This document shows, piece by piece, positions 5,131 through 39,152 of a stretch of DNA of 64,000 nt. Below the pieces are notes generated by a model. That model was not told where the DNA came from. It did not search any database and saw only the letters and a list, made by a program, of their open reading frames with translations. This DNA is from Caldicellulosiruptor morganii (GTDB lineage Bacteria > Bacillota > Thermoanaerobacteria > Caldicellulosiruptorales > Caldicellulosiruptoraceae). The translations under genes were made by a program, and so were the position numbers. Location: the NCBI RefSeq assembly GCF_026810225.1, contig NZ_CP113865.1, positions 2,237,501 through 2,301,500 on the forward strand, in the 5' to 3' direction. The first letter of the stretch is position 1, and each line of letters begins with the position of its first letter.

Positions 5131-6038
5131 TACTTAACACCACCTTCAAACGCACGTGTAAGTTTCATATTTATAAGTGAAATTGTCCCAACAATGAAGA
5201 AGATTATTATGGACATGGCAGATGCTAAGTCATATCTGTAAAACTGCATGGTAAGTTTATAGGTTACCGAAACCAAAAGGTCTGTATGCCCGGCAAATTG
5301 AGTGTCAAGCCGTGCAGGTCCACCACCTGTTACAAGGTAGACCACGTTGAAGTTGTTAAACGAATATGCAAACGATGATATTACAATGGGCAGCGCAGCA
5401 GGAACAATCATTGGTATTGTTATTTTGAATAGCTTCGTAAACCAGCCTGCACCATCAATTTCCGCAACCTCATAAAGTTCTGTGGGAATTGATTGAAGCG
5501 CACCCAGGCAAGCGTTCATCATAAAAGGATAGCTAAGCCAGAGATTCACAATAAATATTCCTATTTTTGCCCAGAAAGGGTCAGTTGACCATGGCACAGG
5601 GCTCAAATGCAATGTTCTCAGCACCATATTAATTGCACCGTATTCCTCGTTCAAAAGTCCCTGCCATGCAAGAGCTGCAATTGTCCCCGGGATTGCCCAC
5701 GGGATGATAAGTATTGCTCTGTAGATATTTGTCTCTTTCATAAACTTGTTGTTAAGAAGGACGGCGAGCAAAAGTCCTGCCGAGAAGTTAATCAAAACGG
5801 TTATTAATGCAAAAGAAAATGTCCATGCAAATGTTGGACCAAAAACCTCTTTAAACGGTCCTGTTAAAATATCCACAAAGTTCTTGAAGCCCACAAACCT
5901 GTAATCTTCTAAGTGGTTCAGGTTAAAATTTGTGAAGGCATAATACACAGTCATTGCAATAGGAAAGAACGAAAGCACAGCCATAGAAATTAGAGCCGGT
6001 GCAAGATACGCATAACCTATGGGCTCCTTTTTTTTCAT
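5130..6038 (-). CDS. malF: maltodextrin ABC transporter permease (MalF type)
   Basis: A 302-residue permease with six predicted membrane spans, the first at about residues 10-31. It carries the EAA-type loop (EVAEIDGAGWFTKLFKITIPM-like, near residues 191-210). It is the first gene of the unit malF-malG-phosphorylase-lacI. It lacks the large periplasmic loop of enterobacterial MalF, as usual in Gram-positives. A consensus promoter and a LacI-type operator lie directly upstream. Confidence 0.9.
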   Translation of the reverse strand: MKKKEPIGYAYLAPALISMAVLSFFPIAMTVYYAFTNFNLNHLEDYRFVGFKNFVDILTGPFKEVFGPTFAWTFSFALITVLINFSAGLLLAVLLNNKFMKETNIYRAILIIPWAIPGTIAALAWQGLLNEEYGAINMVLRTLHLSPVPWSTDPFWAKIGIFIVNLWLSYPFMMNACLGALQSIPTELYEVAEIDGAGWFTKLFKITIPMIVPAALPIVISSFAYSFNNFNVVYLVTGGGPARLDTQFAGHTDLLVSVTYKLTMQFYRYDLASAMSIIIFFIVGTISLINMKLTRAFEGGVK

Positions 6039-10713: not shown

Positions 10714-11820
10714 CTATATACATAAAACTTCTCTCAAAAGCTTCATATCCAAAAGAGGAACATCGGGCGCTTTGCTCTGGACATCCACAAATCTTTCCTC
10801 CTGCAGAGAAGTATATATTGCAAAAAGTGTTTCCAAAACATGAAAGGCTAAGCTTCCGGATGCTCTGAGTGGAGTTTTGAGCCTTATCGCAAGCGCCATG
10901 TCAAGTATCCCAAGCCCCCTTAAATTGTCGTAATTGAACGGGTTTATTACAGGCACTTCTTTAAACTCCTGATCATCATGTCTTTTCAAAAGCACTCTGC
11001 CATAGTCAAAGAAGTTGGGGTCAGGAACAATCAATGTACCTTCTTCTCCATATATTTCTATTCCACGAAGATTTGTTGCCGGCACATCATACGACACAGT
11101 TACATTTCCAATTATGTCATCTTCAAACAAGATTTTTGCCGTCACATACGTTGGCATTTCAACCACAATTTTTTCGCCCCTGTGAGGCTCAGATGTAACA
11201 AGTCTTTCATTGAAAGTAATCTTGCCCATTGCAGATACCTTTTTCACAGAGCCCAGCAAGAACACAAGTGCAGTCAGGCAATATGGACCTATGTCAAACA
11301 GAGGTCCCATAAACTTTTTGAAAATAAAGTGAGGATTTGGATGCCACTTTTCCGGTCCGCCATACATTACAAAACAGTTGGCTGCAAACGGCTTCCCTAT
11401 CCAGCCATCCTGGATAAGCTTTTTAGCCGTCTGGATATTTGCACCAAGAAAGGTATCTGGAGCACATCCAATTATCAACCCTTTATTTTGGGCAAACTCC
11501 AGAATTTCTTTTGCTTCATACACCGTAGAGCAAAGAGGTTTTTCGCTGTAAAGGTGTTTACCGCTTTCAAGTACCTTTTTGTTGATGTTGTAATGATGCT
11601 GGGGTGGTGTCAGGTTGACAACTATATCTACATCCAAATCATACACCCTGTCTGGCTCAACAGCTTCTTTTATTGAAAATTCCGATGATAGCCCTTTTGC
11701 TCTCTGTAAATCTACATCCGCACATGCCACAATCTCAAATATTCCAAACCTTTTTAAATTTTTAACATACACAGGCGCTATGTTGCCACAGCCCATTATC
11801 GCTACTCTGGTTTTTGTCAT
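10714..11820 (-). CDS. Gfo/Idh/MocA family NAD(P)-dependent oxidoreductase
   Basis: A 368-residue sugar or inositol dehydrogenase-like enzyme. The N-terminal Rossmann fold has the dinucleotide loop MGCGNIAPVY, and the conserved YSEKPLCSTVYEA (Lys in the EKP motif) is followed by a C-terminal beta-sheet substrate domain including FDIGPYCLTALVFLLG. It is a soluble cytoplasmic enzyme whose substrate cannot be named from sequence. It starts after AAAGGAGAG. It stands alone: spmA is 57 bases downstream and the MarR gene is divergent. Confidence 0.85.
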   Translation of the reverse strand: MTKTRVAIMGCGNIAPVYVKNLKRFGIFEIVACADVDLQRAKGLSSEFSIKEAVEPDRVYDLDVDIVVNLTPPQHHYNINKKVLESGKHLYSEKPLCSTVYEAKEILEFAQNKGLIIGCAPDTFLGANIQTAKKLIQDGWIGKPFAANCFVMYGGPEKWHPNPHFIFKKFMGPLFDIGPYCLTALVFLLGSVKKVSAMGKITFNERLVTSEPHRGEKIVVEMPTYVTAKILFEDDIIGNVTVSYDVPATNLRGIEIYGEEGTLIVPDPNFFDYGRVLLKRHDDQEFKEVPVINPFNYDNLRGLGILDMALAIRLKTPLRASGSLAFHVLETLFAIYTSLQEERFVDVQSKAPDVPLLDMKLLREVLCI

Positions 11821-12090: not shown

Positions 12091-12528
12091 GTGGAAAATA
12101 AATGTGAAGAAAAAGCTATCTACGAAATGCTCAGAGCAATAAGAAGAAAACTTAACAGCAGGCTCAAGATAGAAGAGTTTTTTGACTGCGAGGATGTTTT
12201 AACGTTTGGTGAGCAGCAGGTGATAATGGTTTTAAGCGAAAACTCACAGCCTATGACCATGAAAGACATTGCAAAGGAGCTTGGCATATCCCCTTCTACT
12301 CTGACAGGAATTGTAGACAGGCTTGTTGAAAAAGGAATTGTAAATAGAGAGCCGGATAACCAGGATAGAAGGAAGCTTCAAGTTTTTCTTACAGAAAAGG
12401 GTAAAAATATGGTTAAAAAGGTGACAGACTTTAGAACAAGGGTTTTAGAACCTGTGCTGAAAAACCTATCTCACGAGGAAATAAGCTTGCTTATAAAGAT
12501 TATTCAAAAAATCAATGAGGCACTCTGA
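12091..12528 (+). CDS. MarR-family repressor
   Basis: A 145-residue winged-helix regulator of usual MarR length. Residues about 50-110 hold the DNA-binding domain: MTMKDIAKELGISPSTLTGIVDRL, then the wing DRRKLQVFLTEKG. The GTG start at 12091 follows a GGGGGC stretch at 12078-12083. It is the first gene of an operon with an HlyD-type adaptor, an ABC ATPase and a MacB-type permease, so it probably represses that exporter and itself through the palindrome on the promoter. Confidence 0.88.
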   Translation: MENKCEEKAIYEMLRAIRRKLNSRLKIEEFFDCEDVLTFGEQQVIMVLSENSQPMTMKDIAKELGISPSTLTGIVDRLVEKGIVNREPDNQDRRKLQVFLTEKGKNMVKKVTDFRTRVLEPVLKNLSHEEISLLIKIIQKINEAL

Positions 12529-35166: not shown

Positions 35167-35385
35167 ATGCCATTTTATGATTTGAGATGCAAAGAATGTG
35201 GAGAAGAATTTAATACATGGGCATCCATCCAGCAGAGGGAAAACAAAGAAATTGAGTGTCCAAACTGTCACAGCCGCGAGCTTGAGCCTGTTTTCAAAAA
35301 TGTCAACTTTATTGTATCTTCAAAATCATACGACAGTGGCTCTTCATGCTCAAGTGGATGTTGTGGAGGATCCTGCGGATTTTAA
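35167..35385 (+). CDS. FmdB-family zinc ribbon protein
   Basis: A 72-residue small zinc ribbon: MPFYDLRCKECGEEF (first CxxC, residues 8-11) and IECPNCHSRELEPVF (second CxxC). A Ser/Gly/Cys-rich tail ends in CGGSCGF. The family is common and regulatory, with no firm function. ATG 35167 has GGGGGT 7 bases upstream. Its last 15 coding bases and terminator are duplicated 3,300 bases downstream. Confidence 0.85.
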   Translation: MPFYDLRCKECGEEFNTWASIQQRENKEIECPNCHSRELEPVFKNVNFIVSSKSYDSGSSCSSGCCGGSCGF

Positions 35386-35401
35386 AACCGGGGCAATCCT
35401 G
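35370..35401 (+). repeat. 32-bp direct repeat, left copy (3' end of fmdB)
   Basis: Perfectly identical to 38670-38701. It covers the last codons and stop of fmdB and the first arm of its terminator. The identity resumes 10-13 bases later for 21 bases (GGGTTGCCCCTTTG and the T-run). Confidence 0.9.
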
Positions 35402-35428
35402 AGAAAAGGGGTTGCCCCTTTGTTTTTT
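35390..35428 (+). terminator. terminator of fmdB
   Basis: GGGGCAA (35390-35396) pairs with TTGCCCC (35412-35418), followed by TTTGTTTTTT. Confidence 0.85.
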
Positions 35429-35560
35429 CTATAGCCATTCCCAATTTTAATATTATCAATAAAATTTTAACAAAAATTTGTGCATTTTTTATATTGCTTT
35501 TTTTTGATAGTATGATACTATACGATTGCCTAAAAATTACATAAATAAGGAGTGAGGGGT

Positions 35561-36592
35561 ATGAGTGTTAAAACTACTAACAATTATAATTTGAATAAAA
35601 ATCATTACACAACTTCTCATTCAGTCCAGTCCAATAACTTAAGTAAAAATGTTTCCGCCCAAAGTATATCTCAAAGCCACTACATTGCAGCAAAAAATAA
35701 TACCAAAAGCATTGCATCCCCCAATAATTTTTACAAAGTTTCTACCACTTCAACTGTAATAGGATCTGTAAAGTCGACACAACCAAATCAGCAAATTTCA
35801 ATTTCTATAAAAACAAACAATAGCAACAATACATCCAACCATACAATAAAAGCTGCTGACAGACCTGAATTAGTAATTACAAAATATGACCCCAAAAAAC
35901 ACTCAAATGTTCAAAACTCAAACAAAAGTTTTAAAGATCAGAAAGGGATAAAAGCAAACCTTTCTGTAAATGCTGAAAATACTGTTATTGAAAAACATCT
36001 AAAACTGGGGGTTTTTGAAATTGACTATTCATTGTCAGAAAACTTTAAGAATGAAAAAACTCTGGTAATAAAGAAAGGCAAATCTTACTCCACCACTGAA
36101 GGAGAATTGACTGTCGGGAAAGATGGTGTAAAAGGTAGTATAAATATGGGGAATTTAAGTGGGGAAATCATTGATAAAAATAAAACTGGAGTAAAATTGA
36201 CAACAGCAAAATCTAAGATTATAGGTATAACATTCGAAGCAGGTGCAGGGGTTGAAAAAGGAAAAGCATATGCAAAGCTAACCTTAAGCAAGGAACAAAC
36301 ATCAACAACACCGGAAATCCAACAGGAAATCAAAGCAAGTGTAGATTATGATAAACTTAAAAAAACAGGCAAGAAAATTGGCGAAGCGATGGGAAGAGCA
36401 GCTGCAATAGCAGGTGGAGTAGCTTATTCTTTGACAGTCGAAGGTTATGTTGAAGGGTGGAAAAAAGAAGGTATCAAAGGTGTTGTAAAAGAACTTGGTA
36501 AAGATGCTGCAAGTATAATTCTGACAAGAGGTGCTGGTAAAATTCTTAAAGGAGTTAAAGTTTTGCGAAAAGCACCGAAGCTTGCTCACTGA
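35561..36592 (+). CDS. unknown protein with Asn/Ser/Lys-rich N-terminus and glycine-rich hydrophobic C-terminus
   Basis: A 343-residue protein that I do not recognise. Residues 1-110 are low complexity (Asn, Ser, Lys, Thr), with no signal peptide. Residues about 130-270 look like a beta-rich repeat: KLGVFEIDYSLSENF, YSTTEGELTVGKDGVKGSIN and ITFEAGAGVEKGKAYAKLTL. Residues about 275-335 are helical with small residues (GKKIGEAMGRAAAIAGGVAY, SLTVEGYVEGWKKEG, DAASIILTRGAGKILKG). That layout recalls the region in front of the toxin tip of polymorphic toxins, but no toxin domain follows. ATG 35561 is set by AAGGAG 8 bases upstream. First of three genes between the 32-bp repeats. Confidence 0.7.
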   Translation: MSVKTTNNYNLNKNHYTTSHSVQSNNLSKNVSAQSISQSHYIAAKNNTKSIASPNNFYKVSTTSTVIGSVKSTQPNQQISISIKTNNSNNTSNHTIKAADRPELVITKYDPKKHSNVQNSNKSFKDQKGIKANLSVNAENTVIEKHLKLGVFEIDYSLSENFKNEKTLVIKKGKSYSTTEGELTVGKDGVKGSINMGNLSGEIIDKNKTGVKLTTAKSKIIGITFEAGAGVEKGKAYAKLTLSKEQTSTTPEIQQEIKASVDYDKLKKTGKKIGEAMGRAAAIAGGVAYSLTVEGYVEGWKKEGIKGVVKELGKDAASIILTRGAGKILKGVKVLRKAPKLAH

Positions 36593-36649
36593 AAAATTTA
36601 AATATATAATTAAAAAAGATTTTTTGCTTTGAGGGGGTAATCTCGGGCT

Positions 36650-37864
36650 GTGAACTTCTTGAAAACCAAAAAGATAAGAATTTTAGTCTTTTTTATTGTC
36701 CTGAGCTATCTTGTTTTGATTTTAAGTTTAATGATTTCAACAGGGTTTCTGAAAATTATCTATATCGCTCCTCCAGATAAAGTGTTTACAAATTATTCTG
36801 ATGAAGCCATCTGGAACCAAATAAACGAAAGACTGTATTCAGGAGATGCTAATTCATGGGCACTTGCCAGGTATTTAATAAACAAAGGTGATGTGGCTGG
36901 CTACCAGTGGATGTGTGAAATCTATAATTTTATGGTAGAACCCTACGGCAATCCTGTTGTTGCAAAAATCATCGGAGAAGAAGGGTTTAAGAAAATTGGA
37001 CAAAACACTAAAATTGTAGATTTAATTTATCTATATCAAAATTTAGCAGAAGCTTATTTTGTTCTGGGTATATATTTTAACGGCATGGATAAAAAAGCCT
37101 ACAAGCTGGCCAAAAGTGCTATTGATCTAAATAGTTTAAGTACATTTGAAATCAAGGCTAGAAGTGCTGAAGACAGTCTTCGAATTTTAAATGCAATTGA
37201 CTTGTTGAATGGCAAATATGATGAAGTATACAATCGTTCACTACAACACATAAATAGTAATGGTTTACACTTTAATGGCTGGCTGGGTGTATTTTTTTCA
37301 TCATTGTATGCGCATAAAAAAGATAAGCTGGCAGAAGTCATTGATGCTGCACAAAAAGTTCTTCAAATACTCAAAACAAAAGCAGCCACGCCAGACTCAG
37401 AACAAGAAGATTACAGAAATTATTATGATTTGTTTTCGAGTATTTGCAATGTTTTCAATGTTTTTTACTACATAGAAACAAAAAATTTTGATAAAGCAAA
37501 AGAGGCATATGAAATGTTAAAGAAAGATGATATAAAGTTTGACCCTGAAAACGGGATATATTCACAATACTATACCTTCTATGCAGCTGCATATTATTGC
37601 TATGCAACCGGTGATATAACCTCAGCAATAGATTACATGATAAAACTCTTTTCAATACCAACTTTAACCTTTCCGGAAACCTACTATGAACCTGGTATTT
37701 TGAAATTGGCTAAAGAACTGAAAATAGATATAAAGAAGATTAGAGATTTTGACAAAGATATAGAGAGCTGGAAAAATAAATTCTGGCCGGTTGACAGAAA
37801 GAAATACAAGCCTCTTTTTGATAAGGAACTTAAAAATCTTTTAAAATACAAAAGAACATGGTGA
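36650..37864 (+). CDS. unknown membrane-anchored helical-repeat protein
   Basis: A 404-residue protein that I do not recognise. Residues about 9-33 are one membrane helix, with the rest outside or inside the cell depending on topology. Amphipathic helix pairs of TPR/SEL1 flavour follow, for example LAEAYFVLGIYFNGMDKKAYKL-like and NFDKAKEAYEMLKKDDIKFD. Aromatic residues are common near the end. GTG start at 36650 behind GAGGGGG. It lies 57 bases after the first island gene and 6 before the next, probably in one transcript. AT-rich codons are frequent. Confidence 0.65.
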   Translation: MNFLKTKKIRILVFFIVLSYLVLILSLMISTGFLKIIYIAPPDKVFTNYSDEAIWNQINERLYSGDANSWALARYLINKGDVAGYQWMCEIYNFMVEPYGNPVVAKIIGEEGFKKIGQNTKIVDLIYLYQNLAEAYFVLGIYFNGMDKKAYKLAKSAIDLNSLSTFEIKARSAEDSLRILNAIDLLNGKYDEVYNRSLQHINSNGLHFNGWLGVFFSSLYAHKKDKLAEVIDAAQKVLQILKTKAATPDSEQEDYRNYYDLFSSICNVFNVFYYIETKNFDKAKEAYEMLKKDDIKFDPENGIYSQYYTFYAAAYYCYATGDITSAIDYMIKLFSIPTLTFPETYYEPGILKLAKELKIDIKKIRDFDKDIESWKNKFWPVDRKKYKPLFDKELKNLLKYKRTW

Positions 37865-37870
37865 GAAAAT

Positions 37871-38542
37871 ATGATTTATAACATTGAATATAAATTCAGT
37901 AACGCTAATTTTATCTTTGCCATCTTTGAAACAAATGATGGCAAAGATTTTTTCCTGCCCCTTGAAAAATCTTCAGATGACATTTGGACAGCTCAGATTG
38001 ACCTTGCACCAGGCATTTATTACTATCAGCTTATTATTGACAACACAATAAAACTTCCTCATCCCTCCGCACCTATGTTACTTTTAAATGAAAAACAAGA
38101 AGTTGTGTCATGTGTGATCCTGACTGAAGATTTGTTTTTCCTCACATACGAATTTGAACCATCCATTATGATTTATGATTATAGAATCTGCTGCAAACTG
38201 GATGGAAGAACAACCGAAAAGAAAGTTTTTAAAAAAACTGACAAATATGTATCAGTTGAAATTGAGTTGAAGAATATTATTGGTTTCCACGACGTAAGCA
38301 TAGTTTGGCAAAAGCCTGACAGAAGCTTCTTTTACCAGACAAAATGCCCTGTCTGGAATTTCAATGAAAAAGATCAATCACCAGTTATTCAAGAACATTC
38401 AATAGATATATCTGGCGAACATATTTCACCTGGCAGATGGAATTTTCTGTTGTTTATTGATGAAGTCTTTATTCTGTCTGATGAATTTTTTATAGAAAAC
38501 ACTTTTTGTTATTATGCACCCTATTCTATAATGAACTTTTAA
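37871..38542 (+). CDS. unknown two-domain beta-rich protein (CBM48/Ig-like start)
   Basis: A 223-residue protein without signal peptide. The first 90 residues look like an early-set Ig or CBM48 fold (DGKDFFLPLEKSSDDIWTAQ then IDLAPGIYYYQLIIDN), a form found in glycogen-binding modules. The rest is a second beta domain (about 100-220). No catalytic motif is seen. The ATG lies 6 bases after the previous stop, with GGTGAG as ribosome site. Last gene of the repeat-bounded island. Confidence 0.65.
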   Translation: MIYNIEYKFSNANFIFAIFETNDGKDFFLPLEKSSDDIWTAQIDLAPGIYYYQLIIDNTIKLPHPSAPMLLLNEKQEVVSCVILTEDLFFLTYEFEPSIMIYDYRICCKLDGRTTEKKVFKKTDKYVSVEIELKNIIGFHDVSIVWQKPDRSFFYQTKCPVWNFNEKDQSPVIQEHSIDISGEHISPGRWNFLLFIDEVFILSDEFFIENTFCYYAPYSIMNF

Positions 38543-38669
38543 TCATTATTAACAATTTTTTGTCTACCAGTTAATTTCGGTATATCTTCAGAAATGATAA
38601 TAAGTTTGTATATACAGTCTAAAAGTATTTATTTTGTTAAATATAAACCTTCATTGCAAAAGTTCAAAA

Positions 38670-38701
38670 ATCCTGCGGATTTTAAAACCGGGGCAATCCT
38701 G
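38670..38701 (+). repeat. 32-bp direct repeat, right copy
   Basis: Perfect copy of 35370-35401, exactly 3,300 bases away. Here it is not attached to an fmdB gene: the bases just upstream differ completely from fmdB coding sequence. Confidence 0.9.
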
Positions 38702-38733
38702 CTTTAAAGTACAGGGTTGCCCCTTTGTTTTTT
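38690..38733 (+). terminator. terminator at the right end of the island
   Basis: GGGGCAA (38690-38696) pairs with TTGCCCC (38717-38723), then TTTGTTTTTT. The loop differs from the fmdB terminator. Bases 38543-38669 before it show nothing else. TATAAT at 38748-38753 with TTGTTT 17 bases before may start the next gene. Confidence 0.8.
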
Positions 38734-38804
38734 CATCTTTTGTGCGGTATAATTTAAGAAAAAAAGATTTCTTGAAAACCTCAAATCTTTCAGGGTGAGA
38801 TACA

Positions 38805-39152
38805 ATGTATAGGATATTTTGCGAAAGCTATTACAACTACATGAAAATCTTTGAAAACAAAGAAGCAAAGGATGAATACAGGTACAAAATTGCCAGAGTG
38901 TTTGAACTGATTGCAGAGCCTCAAAAGTTTCGTCAGGAAAAATTCAAAAACTCTGAAACTTACCAGAACCTCTGTGATCTTTTGTATTACATGAAAGAAA
39001 ATATCAACAGGTACCCTAAATTCAAGGCCTTTCTGTGGACACTTGAATCCCGTCAAATTGAGCCGGTTTACTTTGGCAAAACTCCTGAAAATGTACTCAA
39101 GCAGCAGGCAGATCTTGCGAACATGTTTTTAAATCTTGTTTACTGGGAATAA
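38805..39152 (+). CDS. small hypothetical protein
   Basis: A 115-residue soluble, helical, charged protein that I do not recognise. It is rich in Tyr, Phe and Lys (YRIFCESYYNYMKIFENKE), with no signal or membrane segment. A GGGTGAG site lies before the ATG, and a promoter-like TTGTTT-17-TATAAT lies just upstream. It stands alone between the island and the convergent reductase gene. I cannot offer a function. Confidence 0.6.
   Translation: MYRIFCESYYNYMKIFENKEAKDEYRYKIARVFELIAEPQKFRQEKFKNSETYQNLCDLLYYMKENINRYPKFKAFLWTLESRQIEPVYFGKTPENVLKQQADLANMFLNLVYWE

Follow-up and report, generated by a model that had tools for sequence, protein, structure and literature searches.

A three-gene cassette lies directly behind fmdB in the window (the whole 64-kb stretch of DNA analysed), flanked on both sides by copies of the fmdB 3' end, and it probably entered this locus in the window lineage via recombination between differing versions of this 3' end. 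The usual interpretation of a duplicated gene end is that an integrase has acted. In the fmdB case, and in a parallel insertion behind sufB in a sister species, such a duplication occurs together with clear signs of general recombination, and the two cases caution against a reflex integrase reading of duplicated gene ends.

The duplicated fmdB tail and the empty site in relatives

The host gene fmdB (35167..35385, + strand) encodes a 72-aa FmdB-type zinc ribbon protein, which matched TIGR02605 and PF09723 above the cut-offs and is syntenic in 11 relatives. The segments 35370-35401 and 38670-38701 were identical at 32 of 32 positions, with starts exactly 3,300 bases apart, and were the only exact 32-mer repeat within the window. 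The 21-bp sequence GGGTTGCCCCTTTGTTTTTTC, comprising a terminator arm and T-run, was also present twice, at 35409 and 38714. A gapped alignment joined these matches into a single repeat with 88% identity, 35370..35429 on the left and 38670..38734 on the right (60 and 65 bp, both on the + strand), in which the hairpin loop is the sole difference. The repeat consists of the final 13 coding bases of fmdB and its stop codon, and the remainder is the terminator. An earlier examination of the letters alone (the sequence-only reading) had reported the 32-bp repeat and its spacing, the repetition of the terminator's second arm and T-run past a variable loop, and the left copy as the natural end of fmdB with its terminator; all three were confirmed. 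Since the longest exact repeats in 20 Markov shuffles of the window were only 15-19 bases, the fmdB-tail repeat is far beyond chance. A 111-bp query across the repeat matched just two places in the 2.48-Mb chromosome, which ruled out a common terminator repeat, the explanation that the sequence-only reading had named as fatal to its proposal.

Folding predicted a strong hairpin followed by a T-run for both tail copies (-20.9 and -22.7 kcal/mol). The loops of the two hairpins were unrelated, with 7-8 bases of the AGAAAAG type on the left and 10 bases (CTTTAAAGTA) on the right. In the right copy, the 13 former coding bases of fmdB were unaltered although under no selection. Because the loops are unrelated amid otherwise identical sequence and these 13 bases are unchanged, the two copies look like two alleles, rather than one aged copy.

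To place the island, we compared 12 genomes of the genus, namely the window genome and 11 relatives. All 11 relatives carried a single tail copy and lacked the island at fmdB, and nothing was found integrated at fmdB in any of them. In each, fmdB and its one terminator, with a loop of its own, were immediately followed by the sequence found downstream of the right copy in the window, and then by a conserved gene for a 115-aa protein, the right-hand synteny anchor (38805..39152, + strand, in the window). The right copy thus adjoins the native flank known from the relatives (TTTTGTGCGGTATAATTTAAG..., 38735..38804). The bases equivalent to 35428 and 38735 were adjacent in G004, G005 and G006 and within 2 bp of each other in G003, G011 and G002, giving an insertion size of 3,306 bp. 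The most economical reading is that a single insertion of this length would have occurred in the window lineage. These data bear out the earlier claim of an insertion at a gene 3' end with duplication of that end; the empty site that it had suggested looking for was present in 11 of 11 relatives, and none carried the three genes at fmdB without the repeat.

Some relatives have a small nucleotidyltransferase-like gene interposed before the 115-aa gene. This gene showed an identical internal deletion in G005 and G011 (L006 and L009), and in the window a mere 3' remnant of it occupies 38756-38804.

The cassette, its relatives in the genus and its possible function

The cargo of the island is three uncharacterised ORFs, and domain searches found no integrase or recombinase domain in any of them, in agreement with the sequence-only reading. 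They are preceded by a cassette leader (35430..35560, + strand), which matched DNA elsewhere in the genus and combines a promoter-like region, with a -10 box of the ATAC(T/A)AT type, and a ribosome-binding stretch, AGGAGTGAGGGGT, that every family member in an 11-cassette alignment shares. ORF1 (35561..36592, + strand; 343 aa from ATG) has a conserved, disordered, Ser/Thr/Asn-rich N-terminus and a variable C-terminal part, as judged from ORF calling, domain searches and family alignments. It gave no Pfam, NCBIfam, PHROG or PADLOC match above cut-off, and its AlphaFold model (pLDDT 31) was unusable. ORF2 (36650..37864, + strand; 404 aa) shows one N-terminal hydrophobic segment, by eye, and then a helical repeat region; its identity with the TPR-type ORF2 proteins from other cassettes is 23-26%, the TPR matches having been obtained with a relative. 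ORF3 (37871..38542, + strand; 223 aa) is the constant cassette member, with two beta-sandwich-like domains, the N-terminal half resembling CBM48/AMPK glycogen-binding domains. This likeness was below cut-off in the genus and above cut-off in one distant homologue, and the predicted structure of moderate quality (pLDDT 68) matched generic beta-sandwiches with low TM-scores. The island tail (38543..38669) gave only chance-level matches, none convincing, in the genus comparison. We found no match for ORF3 or ORF2 in plasmids, for the island DNA in phages, or for ORF1 and ORF3 in viral contigs, and a phage or plasmid origin was rejected on these grounds.

The window trio belongs, as a divergent member, to a cassette family that occupies about ten other places in 6 of the 12 genomes. 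In those six genomes, each ORF3 homologue lay downstream of DNA matching the window leader and the start of ORF1, and inspection of the family loci showed the three-gene layout. Across the family, ORF1 has a common N-terminal region and leader followed by at least two unrelated C-terminal types, A and B, which are 47-48% identical over the first ~150 aa and dissimilar beyond; a constant N-terminus is thus combined with an exchangeable C-terminus. The type of ORF2 switches with that of ORF1: type A pairs with the TPR-type ORF2, and in type B the ORF2 is a polytopic membrane protein, its hydrophobic segments having been recognised by eye. ORF3 is common to both types, and the window cassette is a divergent relative of type A. 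Within type A, co-variation of ORF1 and ORF2 alleles appeared inconsistent by eye on the alignments and is not claimed. At L039, extra ORF2-like genes have accumulated, and several cassette copies are broken by stops or frameshifts. The leader is conserved among family members, and no common element ends were found; the outer ends are not conserved.

Several further features were observed at the family loci. Immediately upstream of the -10-like box, cassette leaders carry a homopolymeric T tract of highly variable length, up to about 60 T (for example, L044 about 5910-6000, in G008), which makes the tract a candidate for promoter phase variation. G009 contains a 5.15-kb tandem duplication (L037:5491-15789) comprising a 121-aa gene, a cassette and a fumarylacetoacetase-like gene; its copies have near-identical ends and 12-24% divergence across parts of ORF1 and ORF2. 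Imperfect inverted repeats at L040 (5555-5638 / 11041-11124) and L044 (5592-5686 / 12335-12431) enclose a type A cassette and a remnant of an IS256-like transposase, and insertion sequences may have carried some of the cassettes along. Behind several cassettes there is a gene for a secreted-looking protein that combines Ig-like, trypsin-like and MORN repeats (L043:10198-11610 and its equivalents).

Earlier searches had first suggested that ORF3 is restricted to the genus; this was overturned by a search of 398 Bacillota genomes, in which four clear and two weak homologues were found outside it. Behind each of the four clear ORF3 homologues lies a protein whose N-terminus is disordered and which has either long amphipathic helices or a beta-rich part; at L120, L121, L122 and L123, the helices of this downstream protein, where present, are apolipoprotein-like. 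In G086 and G040 a small hydrophobic protein also follows. The distant ORF1-like proteins showed no significant similarity to ORF1 in sequence, and their link to it rests on position and general make-up. The cassettes expose an undescribed and uncharacterised pair, ORF3 and an ORF1-like protein, that recurs in distant Bacillota.

A constant partner, a variable protein with a disordered N-terminus and a matching membrane protein together have the look of an effector, adaptor and immunity set. Our best guess, held more weakly than the proposed route of entry, is that ORF1 may be an effector-like protein that is polymorphic and possibly exported, that ORF2 may act as its matching, immunity-like membrane partner, and ORF3 as a constant adaptor or chaperone. 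No toxin domain was recognisable in ORF1 by Pfam, NCBIfam, PHROG or PADLOC. Searches for EssC (type VIIb secretion) in the 12 genomes gave only FtsK-like matches below cut-off, and a type VII toxin was rejected for lack of EssC. A polysaccharide- or surface-associated role of the cargo is a fair alternative. The variability of the pair of ORF1-like protein and ORF3 in the genus suggests competition or surface interaction.

The sufB insertion and the route of entry

In the sister species G009, sufB is followed by a type B cassette, which is flanked by a duplicate of the last 348 bases of sufB with 98% identity, and six genomes (G003, G005, G007, G008, G010 and G011) have the empty, native arrangement. 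The sequence-only reading had advised looking for the three genes next to duplicated ends of other genes, and that search was positive at this locus; gene-end duplication was found at only 2 of roughly eleven cassette loci. The right end of the duplicate coincides exactly with the sufB stop codon, and at its left end the duplicate is fused into a truncated ORF3 via about 9 bp common to ORF3 and sufB. The duplicated sufB tail is roughly 340 bp long. The first three mismatches between the copies are ORF3-derived sequence, and the other four are synonymous third-position changes, though the mismatch at position 20 is perhaps ORF3-derived too. The differences in sufB proper, all synonymous, are close to the junction and are followed by 286 identical bases. 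At position 35, at least, the right copy has the majority base of the relatives and the left copy is unusual. Since the changes are synonymous and position 35 shows the majority state, the duplicate appears to have come from a working sufB of another lineage. The repeat ends at the stop codon, the point at which two versions of the locus would be expected to lose their homology. The fmdB and sufB insertions belong to different species but to one conserved neighbourhood, in which about 7 kb separates them (window 35370-38734; L045:9436-12692 in G009), a possible hot spot.

We favour homologous or illegitimate recombination over site-specific integration, because the two insertions involve different genes and different repeat lengths (60-65 bp at fmdB and roughly 340 bp at sufB), with no common element ends and no recombinase. 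Incoming DNA would have carried a short stretch of gene tail beside the cassette, and this stretch would have paired with the resident gene. Closure of the other end may have involved circularisation and then a single crossover, or else illegitimate joining at a few common bases (homology-facilitated illegitimate recombination, HFIR). One tail version would thus have arrived with the island, the other being native. As fmdB would retain an intact end and terminator, with the old terminator left on the far side, neither neighbour would be harmed. For sufB, joining of ORF3 and sufB at their common bases into a circle, followed by a single crossover in sufB, would yield the observed structure directly; HFIR may be an alternative route. 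Circularisation of linear DNA with single-crossover integration and HFIR have both been described (PMC3240628), and HFIR has been proposed for an effector-immunity insertion (PMC5361080). C. bescii has been described as limited to single-crossover integration (PMC4633485), and attempts at its natural transformation failed (PMC3425538). We found comEC in 12 of the 12 genomes.

The evidence for recombination between alleles is the empty site in relatives together with the difference in the loops at fmdB, and three or four synonymous changes at sufB. An illegitimate joint with a short common sequence was seen at sufB of G009; the island tail at fmdB has no relative for comparison. No donor allele was found, flank identity profiles showed no donor tract, and a search of genome contigs, in which near relatives were possibly left out, gave no match. 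The homology at fmdB is short, near the lower limit for RecA recombination, which counts against the proposal, as does the small number of cassette loci with a duplicated gene end.

The sequence-only reading had left the choice between site-specific and homologous insertion. Its homologous branch is the better reading, and its site-specific branch fits poorly with variable sites and repeat lengths and the lack of common ends. A small integrative element, with an attachment site mimicking the fmdB tail and an integrase encoded elsewhere, would account for the sharp 32-bp identity at a gene 3' end, the restored gene and the attL- and attR-like divergence of sequence beyond the core; seven tyrosine-recombinase matches elsewhere in the chromosome leave some room for a borrowed integrase, although nothing links them to the fmdB site. 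However, the island is without a recombinase, the attachment site was not reused (11 of 11 relatives are empty at fmdB), the fmdB-tail site is absent from viral contigs, and sister cassettes sit at unrelated sites without common ends. At sufB the repeat is five times longer, and the junction is internal and truncates ORF3. We consider such integration unlikely. The related suggestion that the cassette borrows its recombinase, or is the remnant of a larger element, was not supported either, given the same lack of common ends, the different genes and repeat lengths, and the illegitimate-looking ORF3 junction.

Duplication in place is less likely still. A cassette already beside fmdB could have had the tail copied by a tandem duplication and trimmed by deletions, the relatives having lost the island; the 5.15-kb cassette-bearing duplication in G009 offers a precedent, and deletion between the repeats would restore the exact empty site. 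This account requires loss in 11 relatives, however, and a copied tail would share its loop and downstream sequence, whereas here the loops are unlike and it is the native flank that adjoins the right copy. Direct repeats on both sides of an insert would also be left by transposition with a long target-site duplication, but we regard such transposition as very improbable, as the repeats are unequal between the two insertions, the loops are not identical, and the island has neither a transposase nor terminal inverted repeats. Beyond the recombination route that we favour, it is a doubtful though conceivable extension that a family of small recombinase-free cassettes spreads between species by bringing along a host gene's tail and terminator, which serve as a disposable landing pad, and that at its core an effector-like protein, variable and disordered, is coupled with a constant partner of CBM48-like type, a combination undescribed and found together across Bacillota.

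Relation to known insertion types

HFIR (de Vries and Wackernagel 2002 and Prudhomme et al. 2002, as cited in PMC5361080 and PMC3240628) resembles the sufB case of G009 in that foreign DNA adjoins a homologous anchor and is joined homologously at one end and illegitimately at the other. It differs in that the joint here is upstream of the anchor's end, hence the duplicated gene tail, and in that the process would here be deduced from sequence. Campbell-type integration of circularised linear DNA (PMC3240628) likewise predicts an intact gene, the insert, and a partial second copy with the native flank, the circular intermediate being in our case only a presumed one. In the type VI effector-immunity insertion of Vibrio cholerae (PMC5361080), effector-immunity pairs travel from strain to strain as cassettes, with additional partner genes piling up, much as our effector-immunity-like pairs may do and as the ORF2-like genes do at L039. 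In contrast to those modules, the present cassettes have no linked type VI or EssC-type secretion system and no toxin domain, and are inserted at unrelated housekeeping genes. Islands of tyrosine recombinases at gene 3' ends share the duplicated gene end and the intact gene, but here there is no integrase and no reuse of an attachment site, and repeat lengths vary across the family. The type of insertion is known in principle, and the cassette family is uncharacterised.
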